DNA from: a virus
IMG/VR virus record: IMGVR_UViG_3300048839_000131
Coordinates: 1-34,094 of that record
Direction: 5' to 3' (one strand)
Length of the DNA stretch: 34,094 bases
Below the pieces are notes generated by a model. It was given only the letters and a program-made list of their open reading frames with translations, was not told the origin of the DNA and searched no databases. This document shows, one piece after another, positions 12,411-22,383 of this stretch. Each line of letters starts with the position of its first letter. Within the stretch, counting starts at the first letter, position 1. The position numbers were made by a program, and so were the translations under genes.

Positions 12411-12644
12411 ATGAAAACAACCCACATAGCCATTGCCCTGTTAACTTTTGGACTACTTTACTTCGCTTATGAATATTCATGCAGACGAATTGTTGATGCC
12501 AAAATCCAATCGGATCTGTTCAACCCAGAATCCTACCAACCGAATCACTACAAACGGATTAAAAACGGTTACATTGTTTTATATCTTTGTACTGACATGA
12601 AAGGTGACACTTTGCCGGTCATGGATACGGTGTATTTTAAATAA
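12411..12644 (+). CDS. Small protein with an N-terminal membrane helix
   Basis: The protein has 77 residues with an N-terminal hydrophobic helix (HIAIALLTFGLLYFAYEY) that is either a membrane anchor or an uncleaved signal, then a soluble domain with two further cysteine-containing regions (SCRR, YLCTD). Its stop codon is the TAA of the ATAACG motif that begins the following inverted-repeat linker. Function is unknown. Confidence 0.65.
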   Translation: MKTTHIAIALLTFGLLYFAYEYSCRRIVDAKIQSDLFNPESYQPNHYKRIKNGYIVLYLCTDMKGDTLPVMDTVYFK

Positions 12645-12650
12645 CGGAAT

Positions 12651-12763
12651 GCAGCCTTATTTCAGTGCGGGCTTAATTGCACTGAACAACATTAAAAGAA
12701 CAAAACTATGAGTAACGAAAAATTTTCCAACGAAGCAGAAAAAACCGCATTGAATAAGGGTGC
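12651..12763. repeat. Cassette linker A: inverted repeat around a start codon
   Basis: The left arm GCAGCCTTATTTCAGTGCGG (12651-12670) matches the reverse complement of the right arm CCGCATTGAATAAGGGTGC (12745-12763) at 17 positions with one gap. It is preceded by ATAACG and followed by GTTAG. The ATG of the next gene (12708) lies between the arms. The gene body is bounded by GTTAGCAGCC (12765-12774) and GGCTGCTAAC (12927-12936), a perfect 10-bp inverted repeat. Confidence 0.8.
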
Positions 12764-12935
12764 TGTTAGCAGCCGTTTATTATTGCGAATTGCAACAGAC
12801 TTACAAAAAGAATTAATTAGACAAACTGATGATATGTTAAAAGCCGATTTAGAAAGTCAAATCGAAGGACTAAAGGTGCTACACAAAGAAGTGGAAGATT
12901 ATAGAACGATTAAGCGGCTTTTAAATGGCTGCTAA
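12708..12935 (+). CDS. Helical protein of cassette A
   Basis: The protein has 75 residues and is almost wholly helical with heptad-like spacing (LLLRIATDLQKELIRQTDDM). The N-terminal 22 or so residues are encoded by the linker right arm and body repeat (KTALNKGAVSSR), and the last residues (LLNGC) by the other end of the body repeat. The stop is the TAA of CTAACG. No family is recognised. The repeat-encoded termini suggest that the useful part is the central helix. Confidence 0.68.
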   Translation: MSNEKFSNEAEKTALNKGAVSSRLLLRIATDLQKELIRQTDDMLKADLESQIEGLKVLHKEVEDYRTIKRLLNGC

Positions 12936-12987
12936 CGTACCGGCGCTATGATCAGAAAGGCTTTTCTAAAAACTCTCAACCCTCATT

Positions 12988-13012
12988 CTTATTTAGAATG
13001 AAAACAAATTAC
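12988..13012. promoter_or_regulatory. 25-bp operator, copy C
   Basis: The left half CTTATTTAGAATGA is identical to copy A; the right half (AACAAATTAC) is degenerate. The centre (13000) is 43 bp before the TTGACA of promoter 3, the same distance as copy B2. Confidence 0.68.
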
Positions 13013-13042
13013 AAAATAAATGAAAATAATTGTAAAAAAGAC

Positions 13043-13072
13043 TTGACATTACAAAATAATGTATTATCTTTG
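13043..13072 (+). promoter_or_regulatory. Early promoter 3
   Basis: TTGACA (13043-13048) and TATCTTTG (13065-13072) are 16 bp apart. A leader of about 38 bases precedes the ATG at 13116. The ATAACGTATATTT-type palindrome of promoters 1 and 2 is absent. Confidence 0.82.
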
Positions 13073-13115
13073 TAAGGTCAAAGCAATTAAGCTGAGATGT
13101 AAAAAATTAAAAATC

Positions 13116-13388
13116 ATGAACGCTTTAGAGAATTTAATCGGAGAAAACACTTATCAGGTAATCGACCATGAATCAAACAGATTTAATTTTTGTGAATTGG
13201 TTGACATTGATGAACAATTACTTGAAGACGCTGAAAATGCTAACGAATATCAACTTTCAGAAGAATTACCCGAAGACGTAAAAAGGGCAATTGATACAAT
13301 GATTGACAACGGTGTGAAAATAGAAGATTTTACAGGCGTTATCACTTTTGAAAACAATGACACTACTTACTACTTACTCACCTGGTAA
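13116..13388 (+). CDS. Highly acidic small protein
   Basis: The protein has 90 residues from the ATG at 13116; an apparent earlier start lies in the promoter. About 22 residues are Asp or Glu against 4 Lys or Arg, a net charge near -18. It has no recognised domain. Strong negative charge on a small protein is seen in DNA mimics (anti-restriction, anti-CRISPR) and in antitoxins. It has its own operator and promoter and overlaps a basic partner gene by one base (TAATG). The function is open. Confidence 0.72.
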   Translation: MNALENLIGENTYQVIDHESNRFNFCELVDIDEQLLEDAENANEYQLSEELPEDVKRAIDTMIDNGVKIEDFTGVITFENNDTTYYLLTW

Positions 13389-13594
13389 TGTTCTGGTTCC
13401 TCGACAAACAAACGAACACTCCTGCGATATACGGGAGTGTTTCCGCTATCTGTGCGAAAACAGACCTCGAAGAAAATGAATTGTATTACCAGTTTTCACG
13501 GCTTAAAAACAAAGAGTATGAAACTGAAAAATACAGGATCGTTAAATGTACGGTGTCCCGGTCTCTGCGCTCAAAAAACTCAAAGCCTTTTTGA
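13388..13594 (+). CDS. Small basic protein with possible helix-turn-helix
   Basis: The protein has 68 residues. Residues of about 14-40 (IYGSVSAICAKTDLEENELYYQFSR) could form a helix-turn-helix, followed by a basic tail (KYRIVKCTVSRSLRSKNSK). It is translationally coupled to the acidic protein by TAATG. Its stop TGA and last codons fall in the right arm of linker B. A DNA-binding role is inferred from composition and from the motif. Confidence 0.62.
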   Translation: MFWFLDKQTNTPAIYGSVSAICAKTDLEENELYYQFSRLKNKEYETEKYRIVKCTVSRSLRSKNSKPF

Positions 13595-13605
13595 TTATAG
13601 CGCTT

Positions 13606-13648
13606 GTTATGCCTGCGCCTTCTTACTTTTTCAGGCGTAGGGCATAAC
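13606..13648. repeat. Empty cassette body: hairpin GTTATGCC / GGCATAAC
   Basis: GTTATGCC (13606-13613) and GGCATAAC (13641-13648), extended inward by GCGCCT/AGGCGT, form a strong hairpin. In the other modules these GTTA/TAAC ends lie 90-640 bp apart and enclose a gene body; here only 27 bp remain. It lacks a T run and is not an obvious terminator. A new ATAACG left arm begins at 13644, but no matching right arm was found. Confidence 0.62.
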
Positions 13649-13677
13649 GAGTATATATACGCAACTCAACCAATTTT

Positions 13678-19758: not shown

Positions 19759-19782
19759 TTTTCAGCTTGCAATTAACGACTC

Positions 19783-19891
19783 TTGGGTAAAAGCAGTTTA
19801 AATTTAATTGTATGACAATAGCAGAATTGATAATGATAAAAATTGAAGAAACGCAAAAAGAATTGGATAGGCTTAAATTGCTTTTACCCAA
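19783..19891. repeat. Cassette linker 0
   Basis: The left arm TTGGGTAAAAGCAGTTTAA (19783-19801) matches the reverse complement of TTAAATTGCTTTTACCCAA (19873-19891) at 18 of 19 bases. TTAACG precedes it (19773-19778) and GTTAGCGGA follows (19893-19901). The body end is TCCGCTAAC (19997-20005), a perfect 9-bp match. The start codon at 19812 lies between the arms. Confidence 0.82.
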
Positions 19892-19994
19892 TGTTAGCGG
19901 ACAGTTACCGTCTTCGCAGATAACTGATAAAGAACACAAAAGATTGATGAAAGCACTATATACGAAAGATAGAAGTAAAAAGTTTAGGCGGTAA
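19812..19994 (+). CDS. Small helical protein of cassette 0
   Basis: The protein has 60 residues. The first half is helical (IAELIMIKIEETQKELDRLK), and residues of about 20-30 (LKLLLPNVSGQ) are encoded by the linker right arm and body repeat. The basic tail (LYTKDRSKKFRR) forms the rest. Its stop is three bases before the body end. No family is recognised; such repeat-borne ORFs may be only partly functional. Confidence 0.55.
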   Translation: MTIAELIMIKIEETQKELDRLKLLLPNVSGQLPSSQITDKEHKRLMKALYTKDRSKKFRR

Positions 19995-20010
19995 TTTCCG
20001 CTAACGTATG

Positions 20011-20118
20011 GTGCTATGAGCAGTAGCGGATTAAAAACAATAAACTTTCAAATATGACAAACGATAATAAAAAGCAGGAACTTTCGGATAGCACTGACAC
20101 CGCTATTGCCCATAGCAC
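20011..20118. repeat. Cassette linker 1
   Basis: The left arm GTGCTATGAGCAGTAGCGG (20011-20029) matches the reverse complement of CCGCTATTGCCCATAGCAC (20100-20118) at 17 of 19 bases. CTAACG precedes it (20001-20006) and GTTATG follows (20121-20126). The body ends ATATAACG (20771-20778). The methyltransferase ATG (20054) lies between the arms. Confidence 0.85.
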
Positions 20119-20764
20119 GTGTTATGTGCAGCCCTTTTCGGAAGTTTTCAATGAGGACTGCATACAAGTTATGAAACGCTATCCTGACAAATTCTTTGAC
20201 CTTGCTGTGGTTGACCCGCCTTATGGAAACAATTTAAGCGGTGGTAGGTCTGCAAAGAATGGTTGGAATAATAAAATTGATTGGGATAAATGTAATAAGG
20301 GATGGAATTTAGCAATACCAACACCTGAATACTTTGCAGAACTTCAGCGAGTATCTAAAAATCAAATTGTGTGGGGTGGAAATTACTTTGCAAATATGCT
20401 TCCAAATTCAGAATGTTGGTTAATTTGGGACAAAGGACAAAGGGATTTTAGCCTTGCAGATGGCGAGATGGCTTGGACTTCATTTGATAAAGCTATGAGA
20501 ATACATACACTACATAGGGCAGTAGCTAATCAAGAGGATAAAATGCACCCAACGCAAAAGCCAGTAAAACTATATGACTGGATATTCTCAAAATTTGCAA
20601 GCGAGGGTAATTTGATTTTAGATACTCACTTGGGGAGCGGGTCAAGTCGAATTGCAGCACATAAGGCGGGGTTGTCATTTGTCGGGTGCGAAATTGATAA
20701 AGACTATTTTGATGCACAGGAAAAAAGGTTCAAAGAATTTGTTTCACAGTTGCGGCTCTTTTAG
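20054..20764 (+). CDS. Orphan DNA adenine methyltransferase 2 (beta class), cassette 1
   Basis: The protein has 236 residues. DPPYG at 54-58 precedes the AdoMet motif LDTHLGSGS at 189-197, and HPTQKP is at 165-170, so it is a beta-class adenine (or N4-cytosine) methyltransferase paralogous to the one at 15515. The first 28 residues (up to CYVQPF) have no counterpart in that paralogue; they are encoded by the linker right arm. No other ATG precedes the catalytic domain, so the repeat-derived extension is probably translated. No restriction partner is present. Confidence 0.88.
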   Translation: MTNDNKKQELSDSTDTAIAHSTCYVQPFSEVFNEDCIQVMKRYPDKFFDLAVVDPPYGNNLSGGRSAKNGWNNKIDWDKCNKGWNLAIPTPEYFAELQRVSKNQIVWGGNYFANMLPNSECWLIWDKGQRDFSLADGEMAWTSFDKAMRIHTLHRAVANQEDKMHPTQKPVKLYDWIFSKFASEGNLILDTHLGSGSSRIAAHKAGLSFVGCEIDKDYFDAQEKRFKEFVSQLRLF

Positions 20765-20782
20765 GGTTGTATATAACGTTTT

Positions 20783-20895
20783 GCAGATAGGCGATGTGGC
20801 GGATTTTGAAACACAAAACTATCTGTAAGCACTAAACTTGATTTGAAAACGAAAACTTTAAATTAACCGAGAAACCCGCCATATTGCCTATGTGC
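20783..20895. repeat. Cassette linker 2
   Basis: The left arm GCAGATAGGCGATGTGGCGG (20783-20802) matches the reverse complement of CCGCCATATTGCCTATGTGC (20876-20895) at 17 of 20 bases. ATAACG precedes it. The body begins GTTATAGGTAGGGC (20897-20910) and ends GCCTTACCTATAAC (21158-21171), a 14-bp inverted repeat with one mismatch. Here no ATG lies between the arms; the gene starts inside the body. Confidence 0.85.
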
Positions 20896-20930
20896 TGTTA
20901 TAGGTAGGGCTTCTCACAAAACTTGATAAG

Positions 20931-21158
20931 ATGAAAGAATTATTAGAAAAAAGCGGATTTACAAAAGTTGATGGACTTGATAGATGGTTTATTAACTTTC
21001 AAGGCAGAACTTACTATGTGTTTATGGATGGTGGTAAATGGTGGGTATTGATAAACAAAATCGGAACTGACATAAAAGTTAATCAAACAGGATTTACAAC
21101 TTTTGAACATATCCGAGATTTTTTCAATGCAGTAACTTTGGGTGGTGTCGTTCTTTAG
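20931..21158 (+). CDS. Small protein of cassette 2
   Basis: The protein has 75 residues, beta-rich with many aromatic residues (RWFINFQGRTYYVFMDGGKWWVLI), then a short helix (TFEHIRDFFNAV). It is free of repeat-encoded sequence, because both gene ends lie inside the body repeat. No family is recognised. The fold looks compact and self-contained, as expected for a mobile gene. Confidence 0.68.
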   Translation: MKELLEKSGFTKVDGLDRWFINFQGRTYYVFMDGGKWWVLINKIGTDIKVNQTGFTTFEHIRDFFNAVTLGGVVL

Positions 21159-21177
21159 CCTTACCTATAACGTTCCA

Positions 21178-21289
21178 ACGCTTGCCGTCAGGTGGGCATT
21201 AAATAGTACAAACTTTAAATAAAGCACAAATGAAAGTAGATATTGGTTCACCCGAAATTAAGCACGAAACGCCCACTTGCGGCAAACGT
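21178..21289. repeat. Cassette linker 3
   Basis: The left arm ACGCTTGCCGTCAGGTGGGC (21178-21197) matches the reverse complement of GCCCACTTGCGGCAAACGT (21271-21289) at 17 positions with one gap. The body begins GTTATCGCCT (21292-21301) and ends AGGCGATAAC (21485-21494), a perfect 10-bp inverted repeat. The ATG at 21230 lies between the arms. Confidence 0.83.
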
Positions 21290-21493
21290 GTGTTATCGCC
21301 TGTTGTTTCTTCCGAGTTGTTAGCAAACTGGGACACAGCAATAGTTGATTTATACCGTAATGGCGGAATGTTCGTAGCCTATGATGTAAGATTGAGGAAT
21401 TGCAGTTTGCATTACAACGATGTTTGCAATGAGTATTACGTCAAATATAGAGATGTTACCTTTGGTATGCACGATATTTACAATAGGCGATAA
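21230..21493 (+). CDS. Small protein of cassette 3
   Basis: The protein has 87 residues. Residues of about 1-25 come from the linker (CGKRVLSPVV spans the right arm and the body repeat). The rest has an alternating polar pattern with aromatic residues and cysteines (AIVDLYRNGGMFVAYDVRLR, NCSLHYNDVC). The stop TAA is the TAA of GATAACG. Function is unknown. Confidence 0.62.
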   Translation: MKVDIGSPEIKHETPTCGKRVLSPVVSSELLANWDTAIVDLYRNGGMFVAYDVRLRNCSLHYNDVCNEYYVKYRDVTFGMHDIYNRR

Positions 21494-21499
21494 CGTTGA

Positions 21500-21607
21500 A
21501 TGTTTGTGCAGTTGGGGATTAGAAACCACTGCACTGTCAAAATAGTACTAACTTAATAAATTGATACGATGATGAATACACCACTTAAACCCCAATTGCA
21601 TAAACAT
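21500..21607. repeat. Cassette linker 4
   Basis: The left arm ATGTTTGTGCAGTTGGGG (21500-21517) matches the reverse complement of CCCCAATTGCATAAACAT (21590-21607) at 16 of 18 bases. The body begins GTTAGTGGCA (21611-21620) and ends TGCCACTAAC (21907-21916), a perfect 10-bp inverted repeat. The ATG at 21569 lies between the arms. Confidence 0.85.
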
Positions 21608-21904
21608 ATTGTTAGTGGCAGTTTTTCTATTCCTAAATATCGTAAAATTCCAATTGTCATAATGAAATGGAATGACGGTGCGAAAGGTTGGAGGGCTGAA
21701 ATTGCTGACAATTACGAAAACTATAAACCCGCAAAGTATGATGATATAAACTTTGAAGATTTGGGCTTTCACTTCAGGCACGATGTAGAAACACACCCAA
21801 ATGATGATTTAGTTTTCTTAACTCGAAAGGATGCTGTCAAAGCTGCAAAGTTCTGTAATGAAAAATATTTAAGTGGCAAGGCTAAGATATGGTTCATTTC
21901 TTAA
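21569..21904 (+). CDS. Small protein of cassette 4
   Basis: The protein has 111 residues; two ATG codons in a row open it. The N-terminal 20 residues (PLKPQLHKHIVSGSF) are linker-encoded. The remainder is an alpha/beta domain (IVIMKWNDGAKGWRAEIADN, LVFLTRKDAVKAAKFCNEKY). The stop is three bases before the body end. I do not recognise a named family. The linker-derived N-terminus pattern PLKPQLHxHIVSGS is one I recall seeing on unrelated small proteins of Bacteroidota, which fits a shared cassette mechanism. Confidence 0.68.
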   Translation: MMNTPLKPQLHKHIVSGSFSIPKYRKIPIVIMKWNDGAKGWRAEIADNYENYKPAKYDDINFEDLGFHFRHDVETHPNDDLVFLTRKDAVKAAKFCNEKYLSGKAKIWFIS

Positions 21905-21999
21905 ATTGCCACTAACGTGTGGATATACGCAATAAGCTCAAACCCGCACCAATCAAGCAAAACACAAACCGAAACAACCGAAATAAATACCCGCAAGTT

Positions 22000-22383
22000 A
22001 TGACAGACAAACAAAATTTAAGCCTGTTACTACACATGATCGATGCTACTTCGATGCAATTAGCTACGATCAAGGACAGCAAACTAATTAAGCAGAAAGG
22101 CAAAGAGCGATTAACGATGTATTTTAACTTTGCCCGAATGTTTACTAAGGAAGTCGAAAACCTGATACCCGATGTCAGGAAAGAGGATTACAATGACCGG
22201 ACTGCATATGTTTACGAGATTATGAAAGCCTGTGCAATTACCAATAATCCTGGTCGATTGCTTGCTTTGATCGAATCTGATAATCGAGGGGAGATACAAG
22301 TAACCGAATGTTGCACTAACTGCAAATGTTCAGAGTTAATCACAGACGGGTATTGCAATGTTTGCGGTGCGAAACAGCCTTGA
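22000..22383 (+). CDS. Protein with C-terminal zinc ribbon
   Basis: The protein has 127 residues from the ATG at 22000, chosen over an in-frame GTG at 21919 in the repeat. The ATG itself sits in the degenerate last linker (TAACGTGTGGATAT at 21913-21926 with ATACCCGCAAGTTA at 21987-22000, 11 of 14 bases). The helical N-terminal part (LLLHMIDATSMQLATIKDS) is followed by a zinc ribbon CTNC...CNVC near residues 106-124. It may bind nucleic acid. It is the last gene before the packaging operon. Confidence 0.68.
   Translation: MTDKQNLSLLLHMIDATSMQLATIKDSKLIKQKGKERLTMYFNFARMFTKEVENLIPDVRKEDYNDRTAYVYEIMKACAITNNPGRLLALIESDNRGEIQVTECCTNCKCSELITDGYCNVCGAKQP

Follow-up and report, generated by a model that had tools for sequence, protein, structure and literature searches.

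The window analysed here is the whole of the IMG/VR virus record IMGVR_UViG_3300048839_000131 (34,094 nt), which belongs to a tailed phage whose terminase shares about 45% identity with the terminases of Bacteroides and Parabacteroides phages. Between positions 19774 and 21916 it carries five successive modules, each running from one TAACG to the next and each composed of an open reading frame (ORF) and a hairpin site of about 125 nt; further modules lie at 12642-13649. This region is very probably a mobile cassette array belonging to an integron-like system peculiar to Bacteroidota and the phages of this phylum, moved by a tyrosine recombinase other than IntI, and the window itself is best read as the cassette array of a Bacteroidota-type integron, with the integrase missing. 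The hairpin sites form one family, the cassettes have defined ends and move exactly at these ends, and both an attI-like motif and an integrase gene are associated with the arrays.

Hairpin sites and cassette anatomy

The initial annotation had described five modules built on the plan TAACG, left arm, right arm, GTTA, gene body, TAACG. All of them were confirmed by coordinates, and an arm pairing quoted as 18 of 19 bases proved exact. The left arms begin at TAACG 19774, 20002, 20774, 21168 and 21491, and the right arms end at GTTA 19893, 20121, 20897, 21292 and 21611. Two additional sites (12642/12765 and 12933/13606) are placed outside the five-module array. The features are listed below with their scores against R1, a covariance model of the hairpin sites built from 60 training sequences which included five window sites (12642 was not in training).

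12642..12768, + strand: attC-like site of the first cassette (TAACG left arm to right arm GTTA), hairpin score 13; R1 70.4 bits, E 3.4e-13
12708..12935, + strand: ORF of 75 aa, start codon within the site loop, stop at TAACG; body ends GTTAGCAGCCGTTT / AAATGGCTGCTAAC complementary
12933..13609, + strand: unusual attC-like site, arms 12933-12960 and 13582-13609 lying 673 bp apart; 20/22 arm positions paired, top score in the window
13606..13649, + strand: short body GTTATGCC ... GGCATAACG closing the 12933 unit (GTTA 13606 / TAACG 13645)
19774..19896, + strand: attC-like site, module 1, hairpin score 17.5; R1 53.2 bits, E 1.7e-9
19812..19994, + strand: ORF of 60 aa, module 1, start within the site loop
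20002..20124, + strand: attC-like site, module 2, score 15; R1 89.6 bits
20054..20764, + strand: DNA N6/N4 methyltransferase ORF of 236 aa, module 2, start within the site loop; PF01555 E 1.9e-15, phrog_67 E 4.6e-39
20774..20900, + strand: attC-like site, module 3, score 16; R1 110.1 bits
20931..21158, + strand: ORF of 75 aa, module 3; body ends GTTATAGGTAGGGC / GCCTTACCTATAAC
21168..21295, + strand: attC-like site, module 4, score 14; R1 87.4 bits
21230..21493, + strand: ORF of 87 aa, module 4; body ends GTTATCGCCTGTTG / CAATAGGCGATAAC
21491..21614, + strand: attC-like site, module 5, score 16; R1 90.4 bits
21569..21904, + strand: ORF of 111 aa, module 5; the whole unit 21491-21916 appears as one insertion in a 325-kb contig from an unrelated phage
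21913..21935, + strand: attI-like array end TAACGTGTGGATATACGCAATAA, with the AAC-N5-TATACGC spacing found beside chromosomal and phage integrases

When all 961 TAAC..GTTA pairs of the window were scored, the seven arm pairs named in the initial annotation ranked first, with scores of 13-18 against 12 for the top unrelated pair. Their description as seven linkers holds except for the 12933 arm, whose partner lies so far off that the hairpin loop holds two ORFs (of 109 and 68 aa), the body measuring just some 40 bp. Within 205 nt, the + strand has six TAACG..TGTTA hairpins scoring at least 13 and the - strand has none; the same criterion returned none in each of 60 dinucleotide shuffles of the window. 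Moreover, the arm mismatches of the window sites are non-random, a left G facing a right T at recurring fixed positions.

Of the seven window sites R1 recovers six, all in + orientation, with E <= 1.7e-9. In an alignment of 60 diverse sites the consensus stem has 25 pairs, 19 of which show changes on both sides. As these sites were selected for good pairing, the pairing alone proves little; however, a partner arm is present for 61 of 83 viral matches to a pattern describing the left arm only, compared with 9% of background TAAC sites. What the 60 sites keep are G.T pairs (G5.T133 in 60/60, G24.T118 in 57/60) and a spacer of 4 nt on the left side only. No bulge is constant among them, and a constant extrahelical base in the left arm was considered and dropped for the same reason. 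Of 108 decided cases, 94 show better folding of the site strand and 14 of its complement. This structure suggests that recombination may act on the + (site) strand, folded as single-stranded DNA.

Two further properties of the sites were observed. The loop of about 70 nt (alignment columns 32-100) carries approximately three phased repeats of about 20 nt, of the CACnAAA...TTCAA type. In addition, the 4-9 nt spacer after TAAC varies among otherwise identical cassettes with different neighbours (L009:8896, L011:2652, L013:1853; L014 compared with L018 at 7993), as if it were sometimes swapped during the reaction.

Each gene body also carries its own flanking inverted repeat, GTTA-N6-G ... T-N6-TAACG, a feature absent from the initial annotation. 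Examples are GTTAGTGGCAGTTT … AAATTGCCACTAAC, GTTATCGCCTGTTG … CAATAGGCGATAAC and GTTATAGGTAGGGC … GCCTTACCTATAAC, and in a scan of the window for such repeats the top five exact matches were all neighbouring GTTA/TAACG pairs of modules. Over 258 consecutive site pairs, the two outer ends of a cassette, B and B', are complementary at 4.90 of 6 positions, against 2.22 (standard deviation 0.07) for shuffled pairs; the two sides of one site, taken as a control, match at 2.34 of 6. Because these repeats flank the gene in the order TAACG-left arm-loop-right arm-GTTA-B-gene-B'-TAAC, a circularised unit would form one continuous stem, and such pairing of cassette ends on circularisation is, by analogy, the logic of integron cassettes. 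Among the window units with short loops, five of the six ORFs have their start codon within the hairpin loop, and every ORF ends at the next TAACG or shortly ahead of it. Of 257 phage units, 99 have the ORF start inside the site.

Cassette movement and distribution

The last cassette of the window (21491-21916) stands alone in the 325-kb contig L007, where the encoded protein is 81% identical, the homology starts at TAACGTT and stops at CACTAAC, and the flanks are unrelated. Between phages lillamy9-1 and 9-3, otherwise near-identical in the stretch compared, a 439-bp cassette has shifted from the array interior to the array end, at ATAAC. Clean gain or loss of a cassette at TAAC separates sniff9-1 from 9-2, snork6-1 from 6-2 and lillamy9-3 from 9-7. 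On chromosomes, cassettes with exact ends are common to contigs of differing flanks in 24 pairs, including a 1.44-kb cassette at about 98.6-98.8% identity. Cassettes common to phage isolates and IMG/VR contigs were not counted as shared, some of the contigs being the same genomes. The precise single-module gain, loss and relocation that the initial annotation had proposed to look for in related phages is thus found, with ends at TAAC.

Its other proposal, a covariance-model search, located the sites across Bacteroidota and their phages. R1 matches occur in 123 of 247 Bacteroidota genomes, in none of 200 Pseudomonadota and in 3 of 199 Bacillota, the last being weak (<=57 bits). An IntI over the curated cut-off is present in 40 of the very 200 Pseudomonadota genomes with no R1 site; R1 is therefore not detecting canonical attC. 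Virulent Flavobacterium phages for which strains LMO6 and LMO9 served as isolation hosts (PMC7077304) carry arrays as well, and the module 3 site of the window is 89% identical to a site in one Flavobacterium phage, hattifnatt9-1. Terminase relatives of the window phage (L002-L006) showed no arrays in the stretches examined, and the window array had no match among plasmids by DNA similarity. The first 7 kb of Polaribacter phage Freya_10, whose integrase-adjacent region differs between isolates, are free of R1 sites.

Chromosomal and viral cassettes differ in polarity. The chromosomal ORFs run opposite to the site strand, with counts of 41 to 2 and 21 to 0 (the canonical integron polarity), whereas in viruses ORF and site share a strand, with counts of 136 to 2, and of 17 to 0 for phage isolates. 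Over 49 viral loci only 1 of 215 sites is on the minor strand. Only one full-length cassette occurs both in a viral contig and in a genome contig; its polarity is that of the phage cassettes. We would guess that promoters or start signals of their own, located in the loop, explain the reversed phage form.

The array-adjacent integrase and its attI-like end

Searches of the window for a tyrosine recombinase, a Y1 transposase or a resolvase found none, in agreement with the initial annotation; the record may be incomplete, that is, a fragment. In most genomes examined, the chromosomal arrays end beside a tyrosine recombinase gene. In genome G005 more than 30 sites are followed by the integrase gene, the same layout is present in G001, G002, G003, G006, G010 and G011, and the contig ends of G007 and G012 are compatible with it. 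Strong matches to the integrase-family profile were obtained in 81 of the 247 Bacteroidota genomes: array and integrase occur together in 71, the array only in 52, the integrase only in 10 and neither in 114 (odds ratio 15.6, p = 8e-18). The recombinase gene whose co-occurrence with arrays had been proposed as a check therefore exists and adjoins them, and by this position it is likely to encode the enzyme moving the cassettes. An R1 array with adjoining integrase was also observed in an Ignavibacteria genome (G035; L201, L306), and a Chryseobacterium plasmid (L308:12001-22123) bears a complete array, in which five or more R1 sites are accompanied by an attI-like end and an integrase.

Between chromosomal array and integrase, AAC is followed by a TTGTATATA-like sequence. 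Six viral contigs have an integrase at the corresponding array end, with the start codon 55-57 nt past the attI-like crossover in four. The array end of the window, AAC-GTGTG-GATATACGC, is close to AAC-TTGTT-TATATACGC (L271) and AAC-TCTTA-TATATACGC (L090). No integrase more than 60% identical was found in isolated phages. Since the window has an array and an attI-like end with no integrase, the enzyme would have to be supplied in trans.

The array integrases contain PF00589 and a SAM-like domain, and most chromosomal ones bear an extra N-terminal domain, present in three copies in the 580-aa forms. Some of these proteins are labelled 'site-specific tyrosine recombinase/integron integrase' by NCBI. 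They fall below the TIGR02249 cut-off, and none of 12 array genomes has an IntI over it. Aligned with 11 IntI proteins, 23 of 23 array and phage integrases are devoid of the IntI insertion (I2 helix), having in its place a short loop with a FEGQ/FNGQ-type motif. In the tree IntI is one clade (100/100) and the array and phage integrases lie outside it; they group with IntI, apart from the Bacteroidota Xer proteins, their mutual branching order not being settled. The nearest solved structure is XerA (5hxy, E 3.6e-41), and NF040815 (NCBIfam) scores just under its cut-off, a likeness to XerA/XerC/XerD; unlike Xer, these genes adjoin arrays and are not single chromosomal resolvase genes.

A second layout was observed in G050 (L299), G208 (L300) and G066 (L302), where, past the array end, the site strand encodes short integrases with no extra N-terminal domain; that of L300 is divergent from the cassette ORF, as in classical integrons. 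Moreover, on plasmids a truncated integrase of the array family stands directly upstream of tet(X3), tet(X5) and blaVEB-3 (L309:2967-3822, L310:3504-4359, L311:3558-4280). These fragments are about 56% identical over residues 127-347, and an attI-like stretch, for example TATACGCC...GTTATGTG, separates fragment and resistance gene. Half a site-like arm follows tet(X3); a full site downstream of the plasmid resistance genes was not found, nor was an attC after tet(X5) and blaVEB-3. The three genes may be former first cassettes of Bacteroidota integrons.

The following mechanism is proposed by analogy with integrons. A cassette extends from one TAA^C to the next and comprises an ORF, an imperfect attC-like hairpin of about 125 nt and the outer ends B and B', which would pair only in the circular cassette. 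A tyrosine recombinase of a family beside, and outside, IntI would cut at TAA^C and excise cassettes as circles, and these would be inserted mainly at the attI-like end (AAC-N5-TATAYGC) next to the integrase gene. Cassettes of the window phage would be mobilised in trans by an integrase from the host chromosome or from a co-infecting phage.

Relation to integrons, alternative explanations and significance

The system works like an integron but departs from the strict sense of the term in two respects. As in the IntI-attI-attC system, tandem cassettes are formed of a small ORF and a hairpin recombination site, core-site arms are complementary inside one cassette (the R' at the cassette start with the R'' of that cassette's attC), and single cassettes are gained, lost and moved with exact ends at an AAC/GTT core. 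An attI-like end beside a tyrosine recombinase, where insertion would take place, exists in chromosomes and in the six phage contigs, the window having the end only. The two departures are the R' box GTTRRRY, present at only 28 of 347 boundaries, and the integrase, which lacks the IntI insertion and scores below the TIGR02249 cut-off. Other differences from integrons are the distinct site family TAACG...TGTTA of about 125 nt with its kept G.T pairs and one-sided spacer, the extra N-terminal domain often present in the integrase and its frequent co-direction with the cassettes, and the reversed phage ORFs, whose start codons often lie in the hairpin loop. In the 'reverse integron' of Treponema the integrase gene is co-directional with the cassettes and is a true IntI, unlike the array integrases described here.

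The most serious alternative, although an unlikely one, is that these are ordinary integron cassettes, a cluster of attC sites lacking integron-integrases (CALIN), with canonical attC served by canonical IntI. Cassette topology and insertion end are alike in both cases. Moreover, attC clusters with no integrase and with methyltransferase cargo, resembling the window array, are known in virulent phages including the Bacteroidota phage P12002L, one site of which was recombined by IntI1 (PMC9892861). Against this stand the scarcity of GTTRRRY, the absence of R1 from a Pseudomonadota sample with IntI in 40 of 200 genomes, the absence of IntI over the cut-off from the 12 array genomes, and adjoining integrases that lack the insertion and branch outside the IntI clade. 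P12002L itself has a single weak R1 match, away from its methyltransferase genes, and was rejected as a member of the same site family.

Mosaicism through homologous recombination, the hairpins being passive breakpoints, is very improbable. It is true that the moomin phages are mosaic and that some left-arm spacers are exchanged along with the neighbouring module. However, the arms are distinct in every module, the sequence common to junctions amounts to only some 5 bp (ATAAC), one cassette was excised and re-inserted elsewhere in a region otherwise near-identical, and chromosomal arrays with an adjoining recombinase would be left unexplained. Even less credible is a reading of the hairpins between the small phage genes as immobile elements with a regulatory role as promoter, attenuator or terminator. 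The frequent position of ORF starts inside the site means that the hairpin can affect translation, but the array has no terminator-like site and no Rfam family, neither these nor sigma-70 promoters rose above shuffled sequences, the ends are complementary across whole genes, and related phages do exchange single modules with exact ends. The likeness to REP/RAYT elements (repetitive extragenic palindromes moved by a Y1 transposase) suggested in the initial annotation was not borne out and can practically be dismissed, since beyond palindromes with short fixed ends the units hold whole genes, excise at TAAC and, with no Y1 transposase in the window, belong to arrays that adjoin a tyrosine recombinase.

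Several observations count against the reading of the region as an integron-like mobile array with its own recombinase. No recombination was observed, the enzyme being assigned from position and co-occurrence. G004 lacks the usual array-integrase layout, 52 of the 123 R1-positive genomes have no strong integrase match (as drafts, or through supply in trans), and 10 genomes have the integrase with no R1 site. The I2 helix missing from these integrases is held to be the step enabling recombination of folded single-stranded sites and is said to be absent from all other proteins (PMC7790495). An AlphaFold model of one integrase (mean pLDDT 57) was too poor and was not used for a fold search. Finally, no related phage sharing this locus turned up that would show gain or loss in the window itself. 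The integron-like mobile cassette system with hairpin sites put forward in the initial annotation is nevertheless supported by the site family, the exact moves and the recombinase association.

On balance it seems probable that this is a second integron class, phylum-wide in Bacteroidota and using folded single-stranded sites with no I2, of which virulent phages hold a separate, mirror-oriented pool, some with an integrase. No description of the site family, or of its tie to the integrase, was found in the open-licence literature, preprints not being covered. Published surveys report almost no integrons in Bacteroidetes, formerly only In0 and then one complete integron in Salinibacter (IntegronFinder 2.0, PMC9024848), whereas R1 is present in half of the Bacteroidota genomes sampled. 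An integrase with no I2 also makes the claim about this helix directly testable: either it is dispensable or these enzymes solve the problem otherwise. In Riemerella anatipestifer, aph(3')-IVb was captured with no homology, together with a 140-bp attC-like hairpin, by a recombinase that was not identified (PMC13148043, 2026). Compared by description only, that case is also one of Bacteroidota gene capture with a downstream attC-like stem-loop and no flanking homology, and the present system offers a plausible mechanism for it. It is likewise a possible source of some of the resistance genes located beside integrase fragments. For lytic phages it provides a route to trade methyltransferases and other accessory genes, and it can explain gene trade between phages and bacteria.

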